A stretch of 64,000 nt of DNA from an uncultured Verrucomicrobia subdivision 3 bacterium. GTDB lineage: Bacteria; Verrucomicrobiota; Verrucomicrobiia; Limisphaerales; UBA11358. Shown here one piece after another: positions 7,499 through 30,687 of this stretch (position 1 is its first letter; each line of letters opens with the position of its first letter). The position numbers and the translations under genes were made by a program. The stretch covers positions 62,001-126,000 of the forward strand of contig CAIQWB010000139.1 in NCBI GenBank assembly GCA_903875465.1, written 5' to 3'. A model generated the notes under the pieces. It made no database searches and was not told the DNA's origin. It worked only from the letters and a program-made list of their open reading frames with translations.

Positions 7499-9799
7499 TT
7501 ATTTGGACAATTCCTGGAGCAGTTGCCGGGCGGCGGGCTGGCCGGGGTCGATGGCCAGACTGCGTTTCAAGGCCGCCACGGCGGTCGCGATCTGTCCCTG
7601 CCGGGCCATGATGGTGGCGGCGGCGTAAGGAATGCGGGGATCGGCCGGGTCCAGGGTTTCGGCGTGGGCGAGGGATTCCAGCGCCTCACTGGCCTGACCC
7701 AGCTGGTTTTGCACCAAGCCCAGGTTGTACCACCCGAGCACATGGCGGGCGTCCAGGCGCACGGCGGCCTGGAGTTGCGTGAGCGTGTTGGTCTGGTTGC
7801 CAATGCCTGCATAAGCCAGGCCGAGCTGGTAATGAGCCTCGGCGTCCAACGGCGCAAGTTGCACGGCTTGTTCGAGGGTGGCCACGGCTTCCGGATTCCG
7901 GTTCAACTGGCTCAACACCACGGCGAGGTTTTCATGCAGCGGTGCGGAATAGGGGTCCCAACTCACGGCGGTTTGAAAATACCCGACGGCGGCCGGGAGG
8001 TCGTTGCGTGCATAGGCATAGTTGCCCTGGTTCAACCGGCCGACGGGTTCATCGGCATTCAAGGCGAGGTAATGCTTTAATTCGCCGCCGGCCCGGGATT
8101 GCTCATCCACGGTCGCGCGCAAGGTCCAGGCAGCAGCCACGCGGACATTGCGGGCGGGATCGGCCAGGGCATGGGCCAGGGCAGCGGTCACGCCGGGCAC
8201 GGCGGCGTTCAGGGCGGTCTCCAAGGACCGGGCGGCGGCACTGCGGACCAGGGCGTTGGTATCCTGCAAGCCTTGGACGAGAACGGAGGTGACGGTGGGT
8301 TGGGCCGCCCAGGGCATCAACAGATCCAAGGCGACGGACCGCCAGTAAGGCGAATCTTCGCGGGACAACCAGCCGAGCAGGGGGGACGGCGAGGCCAGTT
8401 CGCCCCGCTGCATTTGGGCGATGACTTGCGCGCGGCTCCGGGCGGGGCGCTCCATTTTGGCACCATACCAGGTCGCACAATTGGTCAGGGCCCAGTCGGC
8501 GTCTTTGTCCGTGTGGCAGCGGTTGCAGGCGTTCGGAATGCCAAATTGCCTGGTCAGCAGCGGATCGGGGCTGGTGAAGCCGTGGTCGTGCCGCCAGTGC
8601 CGCTGCATATACGGTGTCTGCGGCATGTGGCAATTCACACATTCGCCACCGGTTTCCTTGACGGTGCTGGAATGGTAGCCGGTCAAGGCGACGTTCACCG
8701 GCTGGCCATGGGTGTCAAAATCGTGCACCAAATGATGGCTGTGGGTTGCAGGGTTGATGGCGGGCGCGTTTTGGCTGCCGACGGCATGGCAGCGCAGGCA
8801 GAGCCAGTTGCCGGGCAGGCGGGTTTTATAGGAATGGGGATTATGACAGTCGAGACAATAGACGCCGCGCAGGTGCATGCGGCTGCTGAGAAAGGAGCCG
8901 TATTCGTAATCCTCCCCGCGAATCTGGCCATCGGCGTAATAGCGTTCGCTGGCATCCACTTTCAGCAGTTCGCAATGGTCGGTAAAGGTGTCGCCGGGCT
9001 GGAAATCGCCGGTGAGATCACTGCGCAGGGCGTGGCAAACGCCGCAGGTATCCACGACCTGGGCGCGGGAAGGTTTCGTGAGCGTGGGATCCGGCTGGCC
9101 GGATTTCCCGTATTTGGCCTGCCAGGCATTGTGGGCGGCGAGCGGGCCATGGCAGGCCTCGCAGCCCACGGAAGGCTCGGCCATGGTGGTATGAAAAGTG
9201 TCGGTGGGCGCATCGTAATTTTTGCGCAGCCGGGTGTTGTGGCAGGTGGCGCACATGGAGTTCCAATTCATGCCGCGCCCGGTCCAGTGGCCCCACTCGC
9301 CAGGCTGCCGGTCTTCAGCGCCGTAGGAATTAAACCATTCCCTGGCCTGCGGGTCGAACGAGGCCTCCAGGGTTTGGAACCGGCCGCCAGGAAACGGCAC
9401 GAGGTATTGGAGCAGCGGGTCTTCGCCAATCACGCGGGCGATGGGATGGGCCTCCGGTTGATGCGAGAGCCCCAGGGCCGTGACCACGGCGGTGCCGTTG
9501 GTCCAACTGGCCACCGAGGTCTGGCGGCCATGATGAAATGATTGGGGCGGGTCGAAGGCGGCCCGGTCCCGGCTGGGCTGGACGGGGCGTTCAGCGAGGG
9601 CGTGATGGGAATTTTGCCAGAGCGTGTACTCCTCGGCATGGCAACCCTGGCAACTCGCCGAACCGCCGTACTGGGCGTACACTGGGTGTTCGTCCGGCAG
9701 TAGCGGGGCAGGAGGGGCGGAGGGATTAGCGGCATGGACGAGCCCGAGGGCGGCCAGCCAGGCCGCCCCAATGGTTGCCGAGGCCAGCCAGGTTCGCAT
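7499..9799 (-). CDS. Octahaem cytochrome c with HEAT and TPR repeats
   Basis: A 766-residue exported protein; the start MRTWLASATIG gives a clear signal peptide ending near LVHAANPS. The N-terminal half contains eight CXXCH haem-binding motifs: SCQGCH, MCATCH, GCEACH, TCGVCH, YCLDCH, LCLRCH, ECVNCH and ACNRCH. The fold is probably of the cytochrome c554 / octahaem reductase type. A HEAT-like stretch (VRSAAARSLE, VRVAAAWTLR) follows, then about five TPR units (NYAYARNDLPAAVGYFQ, AHYQLGLAYAGIGN). This multihaem-plus-TPR architecture is common and uncharacterised in Planctomycetota and Verrucomicrobiota. It is last of a three-gene leftward operon (sulfatase, Ig protein, this gene). The electron donor and acceptor are unknown. 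Confidence 0.85.
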   Translation of the reverse strand: MRTWLASATIGAAWLAALGLVHAANPSAPPAPLLPDEHPVYAQYGGSASCQGCHAEEYTLWQNSHHALAERPVQPSRDRAAFDPPQSFHHGRQTSVASWTNGTAVVTALGLSHQPEAHPIARVIGEDPLLQYLVPFPGGRFQTLEASFDPQAREWFNSYGAEDRQPGEWGHWTGRGMNWNSMCATCHNTRLRKNYDAPTDTFHTTMAEPSVGCEACHGPLAAHNAWQAKYGKSGQPDPTLTKPSRAQVVDTCGVCHALRSDLTGDFQPGDTFTDHCELLKVDASERYYADGQIRGEDYEYGSFLSSRMHLRGVYCLDCHNPHSYKTRLPGNWLCLRCHAVGSQNAPAINPATHSHHLVHDFDTHGQPVNVALTGYHSSTVKETGGECVNCHMPQTPYMQRHWRHDHGFTSPDPLLTRQFGIPNACNRCHTDKDADWALTNCATWYGAKMERPARSRAQVIAQMQRGELASPSPLLGWLSREDSPYWRSVALDLLMPWAAQPTVTSVLVQGLQDTNALVRSAAARSLETALNAAVPGVTAALAHALADPARNVRVAAAWTLRATVDEQSRAGGELKHYLALNADEPVGRLNQGNYAYARNDLPAAVGYFQTAVSWDPYSAPLHENLAVVLSQLNRNPEAVATLEQAVQLAPLDAEAHYQLGLAYAGIGNQTNTLTQLQAAVRLDARHVLGWYNLGLVQNQLGQASEALESLAHAETLDPADPRIPYAAATIMARQGQIATAVAALKRSLAIDPGQPAARQLLQELSK

Positions 9800-9840
9800 G
9801 CTGCGAAGCTTCGCAGGGGCACCGGGGGAATTCAAGATTA

Positions 9841-10233
9841 TCAGTCCTCGCCTTCCACTACAATGAGAGTGACCGGCGTCGTGTTGGTTTGGCCGGCGGG
9901 GTTGGAGGCAAAGAGCGCGTAGCGTCCCGAATCGCCAGGCTGGGCGTTGCCAATTCGAAAGGTGGCATTGGTCGCCCCGGGAATGGCGATGAAGCCCCGG
10001 CCATGGTCGACTTTCCATTGGCGGAGGAGCGGCGGGGAGCCGCCGACTTCGGCCGTGAGCGTTACGATGCGGGTGACAATGTTGGTGCCCGGGGAATCAT
10101 TGACGGTGTCCCGGATGACCGAGGGTGGCCGGTTGGCGCCGGGGCTGGCCAGGCCGAGCTTGTTGGCCGCCCAAATGACGAGGCACACCAGGGCCAGGCG
10201 CTGAAAACCAGGATGAAGCTGGGGACCATTCAT
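9841..10233 (-). CDS. Small secreted Ig-like domain protein
   Basis: 130 residues: a signal peptide (RLALVCLVIWAANKLGLASPG), then a single immunoglobulin-like domain. The family signature is plain: PPLLRQWKVDHG, GATNATFRIGNAQPGDSGRYALFASNPAGQTN. Such Ig domains are usually repeated modules of large surface proteins in Verrucomicrobiota; a stand-alone copy is unusual and could be a remnant or a small accessory binding protein. It sits between the sulfatase (67-base gap) and the cytochrome gene (41-base gap), on the same strand, so co-transcription is likely. Confidence 0.7.
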   Translation of the reverse strand: MNGPQLHPGFQRLALVCLVIWAANKLGLASPGANRPPSVIRDTVNDSPGTNIVTRIVTLTAEVGGSPPLLRQWKVDHGRGFIAIPGATNATFRIGNAQPGDSGRYALFASNPAGQTNTTPVTLIVVEGED

Positions 10234-10300: not shown

Positions 10301-12094
10301 TTACGGTATGTAAGGTGTGACTTGGTAGAAGTAATGATCGGCACTCGCGCTGGCATCAGTCAGCACGGTGTTGGTGATCACCAGGGTGTTATTGGTGCCC
10401 GGCGGGATGGTCGTGGTGGTCACGGGCACCCAGGCGAGCGGATTGTTCAGATCCGGCGAGCGCCAGAGGGTGAGGGTATAAGCCAGGCTTTTCTGATCAG
10501 CATACTGGGTGCTGCCCGCAGGCGCGATGAAGGCCGGGGTGTTCGCATTGGTGCTGATCTGGGTGTAGCGGGTGTTCACCAGAAACTGGCCGTTGGTGAA
10601 GACCACATCGGCGACGGAAGGGGAGGGAATCAGGGTGCGCCGGTACTGGGTGTTTTCAAAGGTCACCGAGCGGCCGAGGTTCAGGCGGAGCGCGTAGTAG
10701 TTGGATTGCGCCACCGGAGTGAGCGGGGCGTTGAGCAGATTGGTGAATTCGTAGGGGTCGCTGCTCAAATCATACAGCCGCTCGTTGGAAACATCATTGG
10801 TGTGGGCATAGAAATGGAGCAACTTAAACTGGCCGTTGCGCAGGGTGATGCCGTCGGTGGCGGCGCTTTGATTGAACTGCTCCTCAATCACAAAGGGGGT
10901 GGGGCGGATGACATCCGCCTGCAAGGCGGGCAGCAGGCTCACGGAATCAAGCACCACATTGCCAGGCGTGGTGGCAGCGACATTAATGCCGGCCAGTTCC
11001 GCAATGGTGGCGAACAAATCCGGCTCATTCACCAGGGTGTCGTTGGCGCGACCCGGGCTGCCCACGTCCGGTCCGGCGAGGATGAGCGGCGTGCGCGAAC
11101 CGCCCTCGAAGATGGTGAATTTCGCATGCCCATTGCCCGTGGTGGTTTCCGGCACCGTCCGGTCCAGGAAGGGCGGCTGCTGGACGTTGATTGGCGTGCC
11201 GTTGTCGCCAATGAAGATAATATCGGTATTCGTCCGGTCAATCGCGTTGAGCACCACGCCAATTGCGGTGTCCAGGGATTGAATCAAGGCCTCGTAATAC
11301 GGCCGGGTGTTGGTGTTCACATCGGCGGCGGTGCCGCTGAGGGCCAGATATTTGGGTGAGAACAGCAGGTTGGTCGGGGGCAGGTGAAACGGGGAGTGTG
11401 GGGCATTGAAGGCCAGCCAGACAAACCAGTGATTGGTTCCCTGGCCGGAAATGAAGTTCGTGGCGTCATGCACCTGGTCCAGTGTGGAATAGTTTGTCGT
11501 GTTGAAGGAAACGCCATTCGACCATTTGGTCCAATTAAAATAACTGGCCACGCCCGGACTATAAAACCCGGCATAATTCGTCCAGCCGCCGGTCAGGCGG
11601 GGCGAGTCCGTGTCCGTGACATTAGTGGTGGTGCCGCCCAGATGCCATTTGCCAAAGGAGGCCAGGCTGTATTGCGGCGCATTGGTGGCAAAGGCACGGG
11701 GCAGGGTGTATTCATTGCTGCTCAGCACCGGGGTGCTGGGGCTCGGGCTGGGATTGATGGCCACCCCGACGCCGGTGCGGAACGAATCGCGACCGGTAAT
11801 GATGGCGGCCCGGGATTGCGAACAGGAGGGACGGGCGTAGAAGTGCGTGAAGGTCACGCCGCTCCGGGCCAGCGCGTTGAGGTTCGGGGTGGGGGGAATG
11901 GAGGCGGCAGCGTTGGTATTGTAAATGGACAGGTTGTCAATACCGAGGTCATCAGCGATGATCAGGAGGATATTGTGGGGATGAGCCACCGGTTGCGCCC
12001 CAGCGGCAAAGACGAGGGCGAACAGGGCCAGCAATACCGTCAGGCCGCCTTGGATAACAGGCGTATATGGTCGAATGATTGTAGTTGTCTTCAT
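10301..12094 (-). CDS. Secreted S1-type sulfatase with an altered formylglycine motif
   Basis: 597 residues from MKTTTIIRP, with a signal peptide ending near FAAGAQPVAH. The alkaline-phosphatase-like fold is evident: metal site NILLIIADDLG, active-site loop RPSCSQSRAAIITGR, the IFIGDNGTPI segment and FGKWHLGGT. The expected S1 motif is C-X-P/A-X-R; here C91-S-Q93-S-R95 carries Gln where Pro or Ala is normal, although Cys, Arg and the TGR extension are kept. It should hydrolyse sulfate esters on polysaccharides after Cys-to-formylglycine conversion. No sulfatase-modifying enzyme is in the window. The C-terminus has a beta-rich tail (TLTLWRSPDLNN) typical of secreted verrucomicrobial proteins. 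First gene of the operon with the Ig and cytochrome genes. Confidence 0.88.
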   Translation of the reverse strand: MKTTTIIRPYTPVIQGGLTVLLALFALVFAAGAQPVAHPHNILLIIADDLGIDNLSIYNTNAAASIPPTPNLNALARSGVTFTHFYARPSCSQSRAAIITGRDSFRTGVGVAINPSPSPSTPVLSSNEYTLPRAFATNAPQYSLASFGKWHLGGTTTNVTDTDSPRLTGGWTNYAGFYSPGVASYFNWTKWSNGVSFNTTNYSTLDQVHDATNFISGQGTNHWFVWLAFNAPHSPFHLPPTNLLFSPKYLALSGTAADVNTNTRPYYEALIQSLDTAIGVVLNAIDRTNTDIIFIGDNGTPINVQQPPFLDRTVPETTTGNGHAKFTIFEGGSRTPLILAGPDVGSPGRANDTLVNEPDLFATIAELAGINVAATTPGNVVLDSVSLLPALQADVIRPTPFVIEEQFNQSAATDGITLRNGQFKLLHFYAHTNDVSNERLYDLSSDPYEFTNLLNAPLTPVAQSNYYALRLNLGRSVTFENTQYRRTLIPSPSVADVVFTNGQFLVNTRYTQISTNANTPAFIAPAGSTQYADQKSLAYTLTLWRSPDLNNPLAWVPVTTTTIPPGTNNTLVITNTVLTDASASADHYFYQVTPYIP

Positions 12095-12302
12095 GGTTTC
12101 AGCTAACAAGTTACTCACGGTTGGTTTGGTTTGGTTGTCCTGCGGCCACGTCGTGGATGGTCCGGTGAATATCCGGCCATGACGCCTGGCGGCAGGCGGA
12201 TTAACCTCCCTGGGAAAGGGTCGGAAAAATGGATCGCGGGCGGCCGACCCGCACACGGTATTCCGGGCCGGCGAGCCGATGCCCCGGTCAGCGGGGCAAA
12301 AT

Positions 12303-12488
12303 TCAGGCAAAAAATTCGGTTTCCCCGCCAGCAAACCAATTTAACCGGCGCAGTTGTTCGCGGATCTTGCGCCGTTCATGGCGGTGTTCGATGGATTTTG
12401 GGGGATGGAGCAGGCGGGTGCCCGCGGGGCGCGATGCGTTGGCATCGGCGGCGTTGCGTTCGGTACGGTCATGCAGAGTTGTTTTCAT
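12303..12488 (-). CDS. Possible small basic protein, function unknown
   Basis: A 61-codon frame starting MKTTLHDRTERNAADANAS and ending GGETEFFA. It is rich in charged residues (HRHERRKIREQLRRLNW), with codon choice like the neighbouring genes (GCC, CGC, GAA, ACC favoured) and no membrane segment. A GGAGGT sequence occurs 21 bases upstream of the ATG, too far for normal initiation. It lies head-to-tail upstream of the sulfatase and just downstream of the AT-rich block. I recognise no family. It may be spurious. Confidence 0.35.
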   Translation of the reverse strand: MKTTLHDRTERNAADANASRPAGTRLLHPPKSIEHRHERRKIREQLRRLNWFAGGETEFFA

Positions 12489-12547
12489 AAGCAGATACTT
12501 TTTATGAGAACCTCCAGTGGACCGGTCAGCTCGTCGAGTTTAAATTA

Positions 12548-12564
12548 ACGATCAAAAAGATCGT
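12548..12564. promoter_or_regulatory. Perfect 6-bp inverted repeat in the AT-rich block
   Basis: ACGATC and GATCGT flank AAAAA, giving a 17-base dyad. A second dyad, ACGAC-N7-GTCGT, lies near 12635-12651 beside a TATAAT-like sequence. Both are plausible operator sites for the sulfatase or the small upstream frame. No regulator gene is adjacent, so this is inference from symmetry alone. Confidence 0.3.
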
Positions 12565-12812
12565 AAATAAAAAATTATTTAATTTTTAAAAAATCTATAA
12601 AAATTCAGTATTTTAGATTTAAAGCCGATATATACGACTTAATATGTCGTTATAATATACTCATCATTGGAGATGTCAACAGGTAAATTTAAAATGCTGA
12701 AAAGGCCAGCCAACGCGCCTGCTCGCACCTGCCAAAACCCGTTGGTTAAGCAGTTGAAGCGGTGCAGTCCGATTGACCGCCCGCGCAGGTTCCGGTTTCA
12801 AAACAGGGCGAA

Positions 12813-13166
12813 TTAACGGGCGGGCGAGCGGCTCAGGCGCACGGAGACCACCCGGGCTTGCGGGATTGGGAATTTTTTCACCTCGATGGTCACTGCGGCG
12901 GGCTGGAATTCGGCAAGCACCACCTCGGCCAGATCGGACGCCAGCTTTTCGATCAGTTTCCAACTACGGCCCTCGCCAAATTTCAAGAGCCGCTGGCTCA
13001 CGGTGAAGTAATCCACCGTGTCGGCTATGCTATCGCTGCGGGCGGCGGCGGTGAAATCGGCGGTCATTTCAATGGTCAGCAGCAATCGCTGGGGCTGGGC
13101 GCGCTCCTCGTCCGGCACGCCCACGCGGTAAAATACTTCGAGATCGGTGACTGTGATGGTGGCCAT
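12813..13166 (-). CDS. folB: Dihydroneopterin aldolase
   Basis: 117 residues, the usual FolB length. It matches the tunnelling-fold family: N-terminal ITVTDLEVFYRVGVPDEERAQPQ, VDYFTVSQRLLKFGEGRSWKLIEKLASDLAE, and the late strand VTIEVKKFPIPQARVVSVRL. It converts 7,8-dihydroneopterin to 6-hydroxymethyl-dihydropterin in cytoplasmic folate synthesis. Its start lies 11 bases after the stop of the HAD-Nudix fusion gene, so the two are almost certainly one transcript. That neighbour may make its substrate from dihydroneopterin triphosphate. Confidence 0.88.
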   Translation of the reverse strand: MATITVTDLEVFYRVGVPDEERAQPQRLLLTIEMTADFTAAARSDSIADTVDYFTVSQRLLKFGEGRSWKLIEKLASDLAEVVLAEFQPAAVTIEVKKFPIPQARVVSVRLSRSPAR

Positions 13167-13177
13167 GGCAGTGGGGA

Positions 13178-14257
13178 TTAAGGATGGCTGGGTAAATTTT
13201 TCAGCACGGCCAGCAGCAGGATGCGCGTGGGCGTGTTCAGTTCCAGGTCCAGGGCGGCGACTGGCGTCAGCCAGCGAAATTCGCGCGCCTCTTCGTTTAA
13301 TTTAACCTGCGGCTGGCCGACGCAAAGGCAGGTGTAATTTAGCAACACGAAATGGGCGTCCCGGTAAAATTCCGGCGAATGAATACAGTCTTGTACCAGC
13401 ACAAACTGAATGCGTTCAATGGCCAGTGCGGTTTCCTCCAGGATTTCCCGGCGCAAGGCGGCCTCGGAGGTTTCGCCCCATTTGATTTTCCCGCCCGGGA
13501 TGCCCCATAGGCCGGACCATTTGTCGGTACGAATCATCAGCACTTCACCGGCCTGGTTGAAAATCAGCGCCCCCACGGTGGCGAGCGGCGGATGCGTGGC
13601 TTCAAATTTATCCGGACTTGGATGCAACTCCAAGCCATTGGCCTCCAGGGTGCGCCGCAATTCGCCCAGATGCTCCACGATCAAATCCGGCCCGGCCTGG
13701 CGTAATTGGGCCAGCGTATTATATCCCGTCAACACGGCCACGGAATGCACGCCGCCGTGCTTGGCCGTCTCAATATCATGCTCCATGTCGCCGATAAACA
13801 AGGTCTCGGCGGGGTCCAGGTGGTTGACGGTGAGGATTTCGTGAATTTTATGACGTTTGTCGCCCACCCCGACGTAGGGCACATCAATAAACTGGTCGAA
13901 CCCCGTGACCAGGCAGTGCGCCGCATAGTGGGTGGGATGAGCCGCGCTCAGGAGGAAGGTGCGGATTTTGTGCTGGCGGCAAAACTCCAGGAATTCGCGC
14001 GCATAAGGCAGTTCCACCACGGAACTCTGGGCGCGCACGAACTCGCCATGAAACCATTCTTCCAGTTGCGCCATCGACACTTCCGGCAGGTGACGGTCGT
14101 AAAATTTTTTGAAGGGCAACGTAAACTCTGCGCGAAATTGTTCCAGGCTCATGGGCGGCTTGCCCGCCTGGGTGAGCACGTAATTGGAGGCCTGCAAGAC
14201 CGCCGGCAAGTCATCCACCAGAGTCCCTGACCAGTCAAAAATGATATTGCGAATCAC
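13178..14257 (-). CDS. HAD hydrolase - Nudix hydrolase fusion protein
   Basis: 359 residues read from a GTG start (VIRNIIFDWSGTLVDD); longer upstream extension would run into the 222-bp repeat. Residues 1-205 form a HAD hydrolase: nucleophile D8 in DWSGT, motif II near LLSAAHPTH, a Lys in VGVGDKRHK and motif IV GDMEHD. The usual second Asp of DxD is Ser10, as in the DWAGT loop of phosphonatases, so phosphatase activity is not assured. Residues 225-355 form a Nudix domain with box G256-X5-E262-X7-R270-E-I-L-E274-E275; the box's last Gly is Ala277. The gene directly precedes folB, which suggests stepwise removal of phosphates from dihydroneopterin triphosphate. Alternatives are nucleotide or sugar-nucleotide clean-up. 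Confidence 0.85.
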   Translation of the reverse strand: MIRNIIFDWSGTLVDDLPAVLQASNYVLTQAGKPPMSLEQFRAEFTLPFKKFYDRHLPEVSMAQLEEWFHGEFVRAQSSVVELPYAREFLEFCRQHKIRTFLLSAAHPTHYAAHCLVTGFDQFIDVPYVGVGDKRHKIHEILTVNHLDPAETLFIGDMEHDIETAKHGGVHSVAVLTGYNTLAQLRQAGPDLIVEHLGELRRTLEANGLELHPSPDKFEATHPPLATVGALIFNQAGEVLMIRTDKWSGLWGIPGGKIKWGETSEAALRREILEETALAIERIQFVLVQDCIHSPEFYRDAHFVLLNYTCLCVGQPQVKLNEEAREFRWLTPVAALDLELNTPTRILLLAVLKNLPSHP

Positions 14258-14714
14258 AGGGGACAGTTTACTCCATCTCCGGGCGGGGGGCGACGTTATT
14301 TCTTGGCGAGGTTCGCCTGTATATGAGACTGTTTTAAAATTCCAACCGAGCCCCCGTCGGGTCTTTTGCCGCGGACCGGCGTTGGCTCGGTCCACTGGCT
14401 TATTAAGCCTCTGCCAGTCAGTTGTCCCGAATCGACGTGCGCTGCGCGCAGGCAGTCAGCCCGCTGCGGGGATGCGCGGACCGCGCCGCCCTGGTCAGCG
14501 CCAAAATCCCTCGCCGCTGGCCCGCTTTGAATTTTAAAACAGTCTCTAAGGTGTGGATGGCTGGCCGCCACTCCGTAATCCTTTCACTTGTAAAAACTCC
14601 AGGATGAGCGAAGCTGACAGCGTGGCGCACACTAGCAACCCATCAACCAATGACTTTGAACCTTCCCGTTCCATGGTAGCGGGCCTTTGCGCACCACATT
14701 TCCCCTTGTTCAAA
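14258..14714. other. 457-base intergenic region containing a terminal-inverted-repeat element
   Basis: The centre is occupied by a 222-base element bounded by perfect inverted repeats (listed separately). Short open frames inside it in several directions are by-products of its GC-rich palindromic sequence. The last 170 bases lead to the peroxiredoxin gene without a recognisable promoter. Confidence 0.55.
14325..14546. mobile_element. MITE-like 222-bp element with 18-bp perfect terminal inverted repeats
   Basis: The ends are GAGACTGTTTTAAAATTC (14325-14342) and its exact reverse complement (14529-14546). The interior has further dyads, for example ACCGAGCC pairing with GGCTCGGT inside the left half, so the whole can fold. 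It encodes no transposase. No clear target-site duplication is seen: flanks are ...TATAT and TAAGG.... No other copy is present in this window. It is best described as a non-autonomous, MITE-like element; mobility is inferred from structure only. Confidence 0.6.
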
Positions 14715-30171: not shown

Positions 30172-30687
30172 TCATCGAATAAAATGCAGCCCGGCGTAAA
30201 CCTTCGGATCAATCAAGCGCCCGCCGCCGGCCTGGGCCACCAGCCAGTCGGTCACTTCGGTCAACGGAATTTCGTGGACGGTGATTTCCTCATTGGCCAC
30301 GCCGCCGCCCGTTCCGGTGCGCTGCAATTCGGTGGCGCGAAACAAGGTCACCCGTTCGGAAGTGATGCCGCTGCATGATGCCCCGGTCGTCAGTACCTCC
30401 AGGTGGCCTGCGGCATAGCCCGTCTCCTCCCAAAGTTCCCGTCCGGCGGCGGCCGCGGCTGATTCCTCGGGATCCCCCGGCTCATCCCCGATGAGGCCCG
30501 CCGGCAATTCAATGGTGCGGGCCTGCACCGGAACCCGGTACTGTTCCACCATTAATAATTTCTGTTCCGGCGTCACCGCCACAATGATCGCAGCATGGTT
30601 TGCCCGCACCCGTTCCACATATTCCCAACGCCCCAATTTCACCAGTTGGAGAAACTTTCCCGTGCCAATGGTTTCGACTTGGTTCAT
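30172..30687 (-). CDS. Nudix hydrolase, ADP-ribose pyrophosphatase-like
   Basis: 171 residues from MNQVETIGTGKFLQLVK. Nudix box: A-G-L-I-G-D-E-P-G-D then AAAAAGRELWEETGYAAG, an ADPRase-type box with the REUXEEXG core intact. The IIVAVTPEQKLLMVEQYR and PVQARTIELPAG strands match NudF-like enzymes that hydrolyse ADP-ribose or nucleoside-diphosphate sugars. The start is uncertain; an upstream Met ten-plus codons away is possible. Confidence 0.85.
   Translation of the reverse strand: MNQVETIGTGKFLQLVKLGRWEYVERVRANHAAIIVAVTPEQKLLMVEQYRVPVQARTIELPAGLIGDEPGDPEESAAAAAGRELWEETGYAAGHLEVLTTGASCSGITSERVTLFRATELQRTGTGGGVANEEITVHEIPLTEVTDWLVAQAGGGRLIDPKVYAGLHFIR

Follow-up and report, generated by a model that had tools for sequence, protein, structure and literature searches.

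Dihydroneopterin triphosphate, an early intermediate of folate synthesis, loses pyrophosphate through Nudix enzymes (NudB in E. coli, FolQ in L. lactis and NUDX1 in Arabidopsis), and the aldolase FolB later releases a two-carbon product. In a comparative-genomics study the removal of the last phosphate from dihydroneopterin monophosphate was attributed to a non-specific phosphatase or left unassigned (PMC1971073), and in the open-access literature we found neither a dedicated dihydroneopterin monophosphate phosphatase nor a HAD-FolB protein. Clustered and multidomain folate genes such as L. lactis folKEPQC bring consecutive pterin-branch enzymes together in one operon or polypeptide, and no phosphatase partner is described for them (PMC1971073). 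Phosphatases of the HAD superfamily normally use the second Asp of motif I to activate water (PMC8069645). PcrP/PA2803 represents a phosphonatase-like HAD subfamily that lacks catalysis and has lost most catalytic residues (PMC12632274).

Here we describe a locus in a 64,000-nucleotide stretch of DNA (the window) from an uncultured verrucomicrobial genome. It resembles the folKEPQC-type clusters in joining what appear to be consecutive pterin-branch enzymes, but differs from them in that its module contains a HAD domain. The folds involved are known singly; what is new is a lineage-specific, fused module, proposed to supply FolB, with an atypical HAD active site.

The HAD-Nudix gene and its surroundings

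The features of the locus are the following.

13178..14257, minus strand: HAD-Nudix fusion gene, 359 aa, GTG start, TAA stop (translation, Pfam, full-length relatives)
13637..14257, minus strand: HAD domain, residues 1-207, core and small helical cap (Pfam HAD_2; AlphaFold model)
14222..14236, minus strand: HAD motif I, D8-W9-S10-G11-T12, with Ser in place of the second Asp (alignment)
13775..13792, minus strand: HAD motif IV, G156-D-M-E-H-D161 (alignment of 70 members)
13208..13594, minus strand: Nudix domain, about residues 222-350 (Pfam NUDIX; domain model)
13424..13492, minus strand: Nudix box, residues 256-278 (alignment of 60 members)
13167..13177, minus strand: 11-nt spacer between the fusion stop and the folB start (sequence)
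12813..13166, minus strand: folB, dihydroneopterin aldolase, 117 aa (Pfam PF02152 at 4e-26; NCBIfam TIGR00525 above cut-off)

Translation, Pfam and the spacer agree with the preliminary description of this DNA, which had read a 359-residue HAD and Nudix protein encoded 11 bases before folB on the same strand. Pfam recognizes HAD_2 at 7e-16 and NUDIX at 2.5e-22 in the fusion; exactly 11 bases separate the TAA stop of the fusion (13180-13178) from the folB ATG. A longer, 405-aa frame was set aside in favor of the GTG start because relatives share the start residue of the 359-aa frame. Full-length relatives of the fusion have 43-89% identity, and the closest named one is 89% identical over the fusion. 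The nearest named relatives place the window's organism in Verrucomicrobia subdivision 3 (Limisphaerales). The folB product passes the NCBIfam folB equivalog TIGR00525 (76.2 bits, cut-off 72.15) and is the sole FolB detected in the window's genome. FolE was not detected in this genome, which contains FolE2 (GTP cyclohydrolase IB; C122:27668-28417, locus L224), FolK and FolP. Given these three enzymes, dihydroneopterin triphosphate should be both made and used.

A MITE-like element (window 14325-14546) lies directly upstream of the fusion gene. Its 35-nt inverted arms are 83% complementary (GAGACTGTTTTAAAATTC...), and many partial copies with 96-98% identity occur elsewhere in the genome, on other contigs. 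Downstream of folB, also on the minus strand, are a sulfatase gene (10301-12334) and a gene (7499-10018) whose multiheme cytochrome-like product contains TPR and HEAT repeats; the gap between folB and the sulfatase gene is very A+T-rich around 12540-12680.

Active sites of the HAD and Nudix domains

An alignment of 70 HAD members shows Asp8, Thr12, Ser/Thr104, Lys134, Asp157 and Asp161 to be kept in all of them. Motif I has D, W, G and T in 70/70 members and at its third position Ser in 69 and Cys in 1, so that the DWSGT loop lacking the second Asp, to which the preliminary description had drawn attention, is a fixed trait of the family. In motif IV, Asp157, Met158, His160 and Asp161 are invariant (70/70). 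The four motifs and the fold identify the domain as a member of the HAD superfamily phosphatases; the second motif I Asp that marks the canonical DxD enzymes is missing from every member aligned. The AlphaFold model of the domain (pLDDT 90) has its best solved match in 3sd7 (Z 24.1, 2.0 Å over 203 residues) and, as modelled, the domain is a C1-cap HAD, most like the Gph-type phosphatases.

With Gph-type C1-cap proteins (2ah5, 3sd7 and 2hsz) the window's HAD shares the fold (Z 22-24/203 residues), the motif II Ser, the motif III Lys and the motif IV Asp pair. It is unlike them in that its family has Ser or Cys in place of the second Asp and, without exception, a His preceding the final motif IV Asp, and it scores far below the cut-offs of the phosphoglycolate phosphatase (PGP) models. 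These are the nearest curated HAD models, with weak scores, and the best hit to the corresponding NCBIfam equivalogs stays under the cut-off (55.9 against 225 bits). The phosphonatase PhnX has a similar DW-x-GT-like motif I without the second Asp and a similar fold (Z 19.5 with 2iof), but the window's HAD lacks the conserved cap Lys and is linked to folB rather than to phosphonate genes. PhnX was ruled out by the missing Lys, which would form the Schiff base, and by a score (27 bits) far below the cut-off of 220; Lys134 in motif III is the sole HAD-domain position with Lys in at least 40 of the 70 members. The likeness to phosphonatases proposed earlier therefore extends to the missing second Asp and not to the cap Lys. 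Its residues set the domain apart from canonical DxD phosphatases as well as from phosphonatases. The fixed replacement of the Asp, the retention of the other catalytic residues and the invariant His look like an altered active site, not like decay.

The Nudix box reads G256-x5-E262-x7-R270-E271-x-x-E274-E275 and is intact, as first reported, with all catalytic positions kept; the late Gly is Ala277, at a position that varies among relatives. Of the 60 members aligned over this region, 59-60 retain Glu271, Glu274 and Glu275, and the domain model (pLDDT 90) has a Nudix fold (Z about 18). By box and fold, the domain is a Nudix hydrolase. Nudix specificity cannot be read from sequence, and the fold matches to MutT1, Ap6A hydrolase, NudI, NudC and NUDX1 all fall within about 1.5 Z of one another and do not discriminate between substrates. 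The family model NF006961 does not support an assignment as NudB (25.7 bits, cut-off 103), and the domain is no nearer to NudB than to NudI, MutT or RppH. With E. coli NudB, L. lactis FolQ and Arabidopsis NUDX1 it shares the Nudix fold, the box and a proposed role in the same step before FolB; unlike these stand-alone enzymes it is fused to a HAD, and its similarity to NudB and NUDX1 is matched by that to NudI and MutT.

The window's genome encodes eight Nudix domains in all, seven besides that of the fusion. A second Nudix-domain gene lies within the window itself (30253-30597, minus strand). Relatives carry no recognizable separate nudB, which the preliminary description would have counted against the fusion: none of 236 genomes of the class has a NudB above the NCBI model cut-off, a narrow one that just 1 of 14 control genomes passes. 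We also searched 25 genomes that have the HAD without the Nudix domain, together with two further genomes, both carrying the fused form, for a stand-alone close copy of the fused Nudix domain. The 25 HAD-only genomes contain only remote paralogs (best 31-44% identity), and another protein must thus perform the pyrophosphate step in them.

Pairing of the HAD subfamily with FolB

Our class sample comprises 236 Verrucomicrobiia genomes, and the 152 that carry the HAD subfamily were scored for the position of FolB. Most are metagenome assemblies, in which contig ends and frameshifts may conceal a Nudix domain or FolB. The HAD proteins form a coherent subfamily with an invariant DW[S/C]GT...K...GDMxHD signature, confined among the genomes searched to the class Verrucomicrobiia; the rest of the phylum yielded remote HADs only (E ≥ 2e-18, versus ≤ 6e-42 within the class).

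In 94 of the 152 genomes folB is the next gene on the same strand, at most 500 nt downstream of the HAD, and in 4 more it lies within 1 kb. HAD and FolB share a single ORF in 24 genomes; in the other 30 the HAD is apart from folB or its position could not be determined. Adjacency (within 1 kb) or fusion is hence seen in 122/152 genomes and in 37 of 45 family-level groups, and FolB is directly downstream in 75 of the 80 nearest named genome records, so that the arrangement is not peculiar to the window's genome, a limit that the preliminary description had allowed for. When we compared 120 loci, the FolB neighbor was kept at 102, and the next commonest neighbors, a pseudouridine synthase and a gene mostly on the opposite strand, at 27-28. 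This low retention of other neighbors serves as a control for inherited gene order, and the pairing of HAD with FolB goes far beyond chance. FolB is the only strongly conserved neighbor at these 120 loci. A search for conserved adjacency to folB, folE and folP had been suggested; adjacency to folB is confirmed, and no other fol gene is a conserved neighbor at the loci examined. A folP homologue is found near the fusion in a single relative (L218; 3201-4031, minus strand), about 2 kb upstream and on the opposite strand.

The Nudix domain is optional, being present in 84 and absent in 68 of the 152 HAD genomes, and one and the same HAD occurs in three arrangements: HAD-Nudix with FolB, HAD with FolB, and HAD-FolB. 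The one-ORF HAD-FolB form without Nudix is found in three genera of two families (g33 and g113 of family f23, and family f47), and both domains were confirmed by Pfam in one protein per fusion group. Within f23, HAD-Nudix lies next to FolB in some sister genera; in others the form is HAD-FolB. On an approximate HAD-domain tree (FastTree), Nudix presence changes at least 15 times and FolB fusion at least 3 times. Partners have thus been exchanged repeatedly: the Nudix domain comes and goes, and the link between HAD and FolB persists. The HAD-FolB fusions tie the HAD to FolB.

FolB is missing from 20 listed genomes, and the HAD is missing too in 16 of them, including two g33 members whose sister genomes have the fusion. 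The four exceptions, with HAD and no FolB, are three incomplete assemblies (80-87% complete) and one of 96%. This co-absence is supporting evidence only, as it partly reflects shared ancestry. HAD and FolB are separate in some complete genomes of family f27. In two genomes of this family the DWSGT HAD stands alone elsewhere in the genome: in G057 FolB is fused to an N-terminal cpYpsA/SLOG domain (Pfam PF12694; L252), and G014 has a FolB-fusion protein with a similar N terminus (L253). The DWSGT HAD of G014 (L070) adjoins a gene that, by sequence reading, is LOG-like.

Proposed role in folate synthesis

From its domains and context, we consider it rather more probable than otherwise that the fusion is a folate-pathway enzyme preparing the substrate of FolB. 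FolE2 would convert GTP to dihydroneopterin triphosphate, the Nudix domain would cut off pyrophosphate, the HAD domain would take the last phosphate from the resulting dihydroneopterin monophosphate, and FolB would cleave the dihydroneopterin so produced. The sequence of these steps, and whatever physical association or channelling links the modules, are our inference. In the HAD site, Asp8 would be the nucleophile, and some other group would stand in for the absent second Asp as acid/base; His160, the substrate itself or a Mg-activated water are speculative candidates. Genomic context makes dihydroneopterin monophosphate the likely substrate of the HAD, and dihydroneopterin triphosphate a quite plausible, slightly less secure one for the Nudix domain in those genomes that have it. 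The HAD assignment is the firmer of the two. Counting against the proposal are the absent acid/base Asp of motif I, the separate HAD and FolB of some f27 genomes, and nearest curated HAD models that are phosphoglycolate phosphatases, if at weak scores. Of the original proposal that the fusion supplies both dephosphorylation steps ahead of FolB, the HAD half gains from the adjacency and the HAD-FolB fusions; the Nudix half is less certain, since 68 of the 152 genomes do without the domain and its similarity to NudB does not exceed that to NudI, MutT or RppH.

A second reading makes the HAD alone the folate enzyme, acting as a dihydroneopterin monophosphate phosphatase; the monophosphate would come from some other enzyme, and the Nudix domain would clean up a different nucleotide. 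FolB's constant partner is the HAD, Nudix or no Nudix, the Nudix domain is at least as similar to NudI, MutT and further nucleotide hydrolases as it is to NudB, and seven other Nudix proteins are at hand in the genome. The Nudix catalytic residues are nevertheless kept class-wide, the domain is fused specifically to the FolB-linked HAD, and no NudB-like gene exceeds the (narrow) cut-off in the 236 genomes; we regard this reading as unlikely, with a minor share of the probability. Loss of the second motif I Asp, and the precedent of the non-catalytic PcrP/PA2803 subfamily (PMC12632274), could instead mean that the HAD has no catalytic activity and serves as a scaffold or regulatory domain to recruit FolB, leaving the Nudix domain as the only enzyme. 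This is improbable, since all other catalytic residues are, unlike in PcrP, present in 70/70 members, which fits an active phosphoryl-transfer site, and since the HAD occurs without any Nudix domain in 68 genomes.

That the HAD dephosphorylates glycolaldehyde phosphate or 2-phosphoglycolate, either because FolB takes a phosphorylated pterin as substrate or because the glycolaldehyde it releases becomes phosphorylated, would accord with the phosphoglycolate phosphatases as closest curated models and with the two carbons of the FolB product. Scores far under the cut-offs (about 56 versus 225 bits) and the upstream Nudix fusion, which suggests the triphosphate side of the pathway, leave it little chance. 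Finally, vertical descent within one class could preserve gene order with no functional link, the genes before folB being general nucleotide house-cleaning enzymes; FolB is kept at 102 of 120 loci and other neighbors at only 27-28, and HAD-FolB fusions exist in two families, which renders this very improbable.

Returning to the fusion as supplier of FolB, a more far-reaching version, which we offer as possible rather than probable, is that this HAD subfamily acts as a phosphatase dedicated to dihydroneopterin monophosphate, dispensing with the acid/base Asp of motif I, and that the alternative Nudix, HAD and FolB fusions hand pterins directly to FolB. Because it accompanies FolB in 37 of 45 family-level groups and can be fused to it, the HAD subfamily offers a specific protein for assay. 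If the proposal is correct, it would be a HAD phosphatase active without the usual acid/base Asp, and it would help to fill the missing-gene entries for the dihydroneopterin triphosphate pyrophosphatase and the phosphatase in folate pathway annotation.
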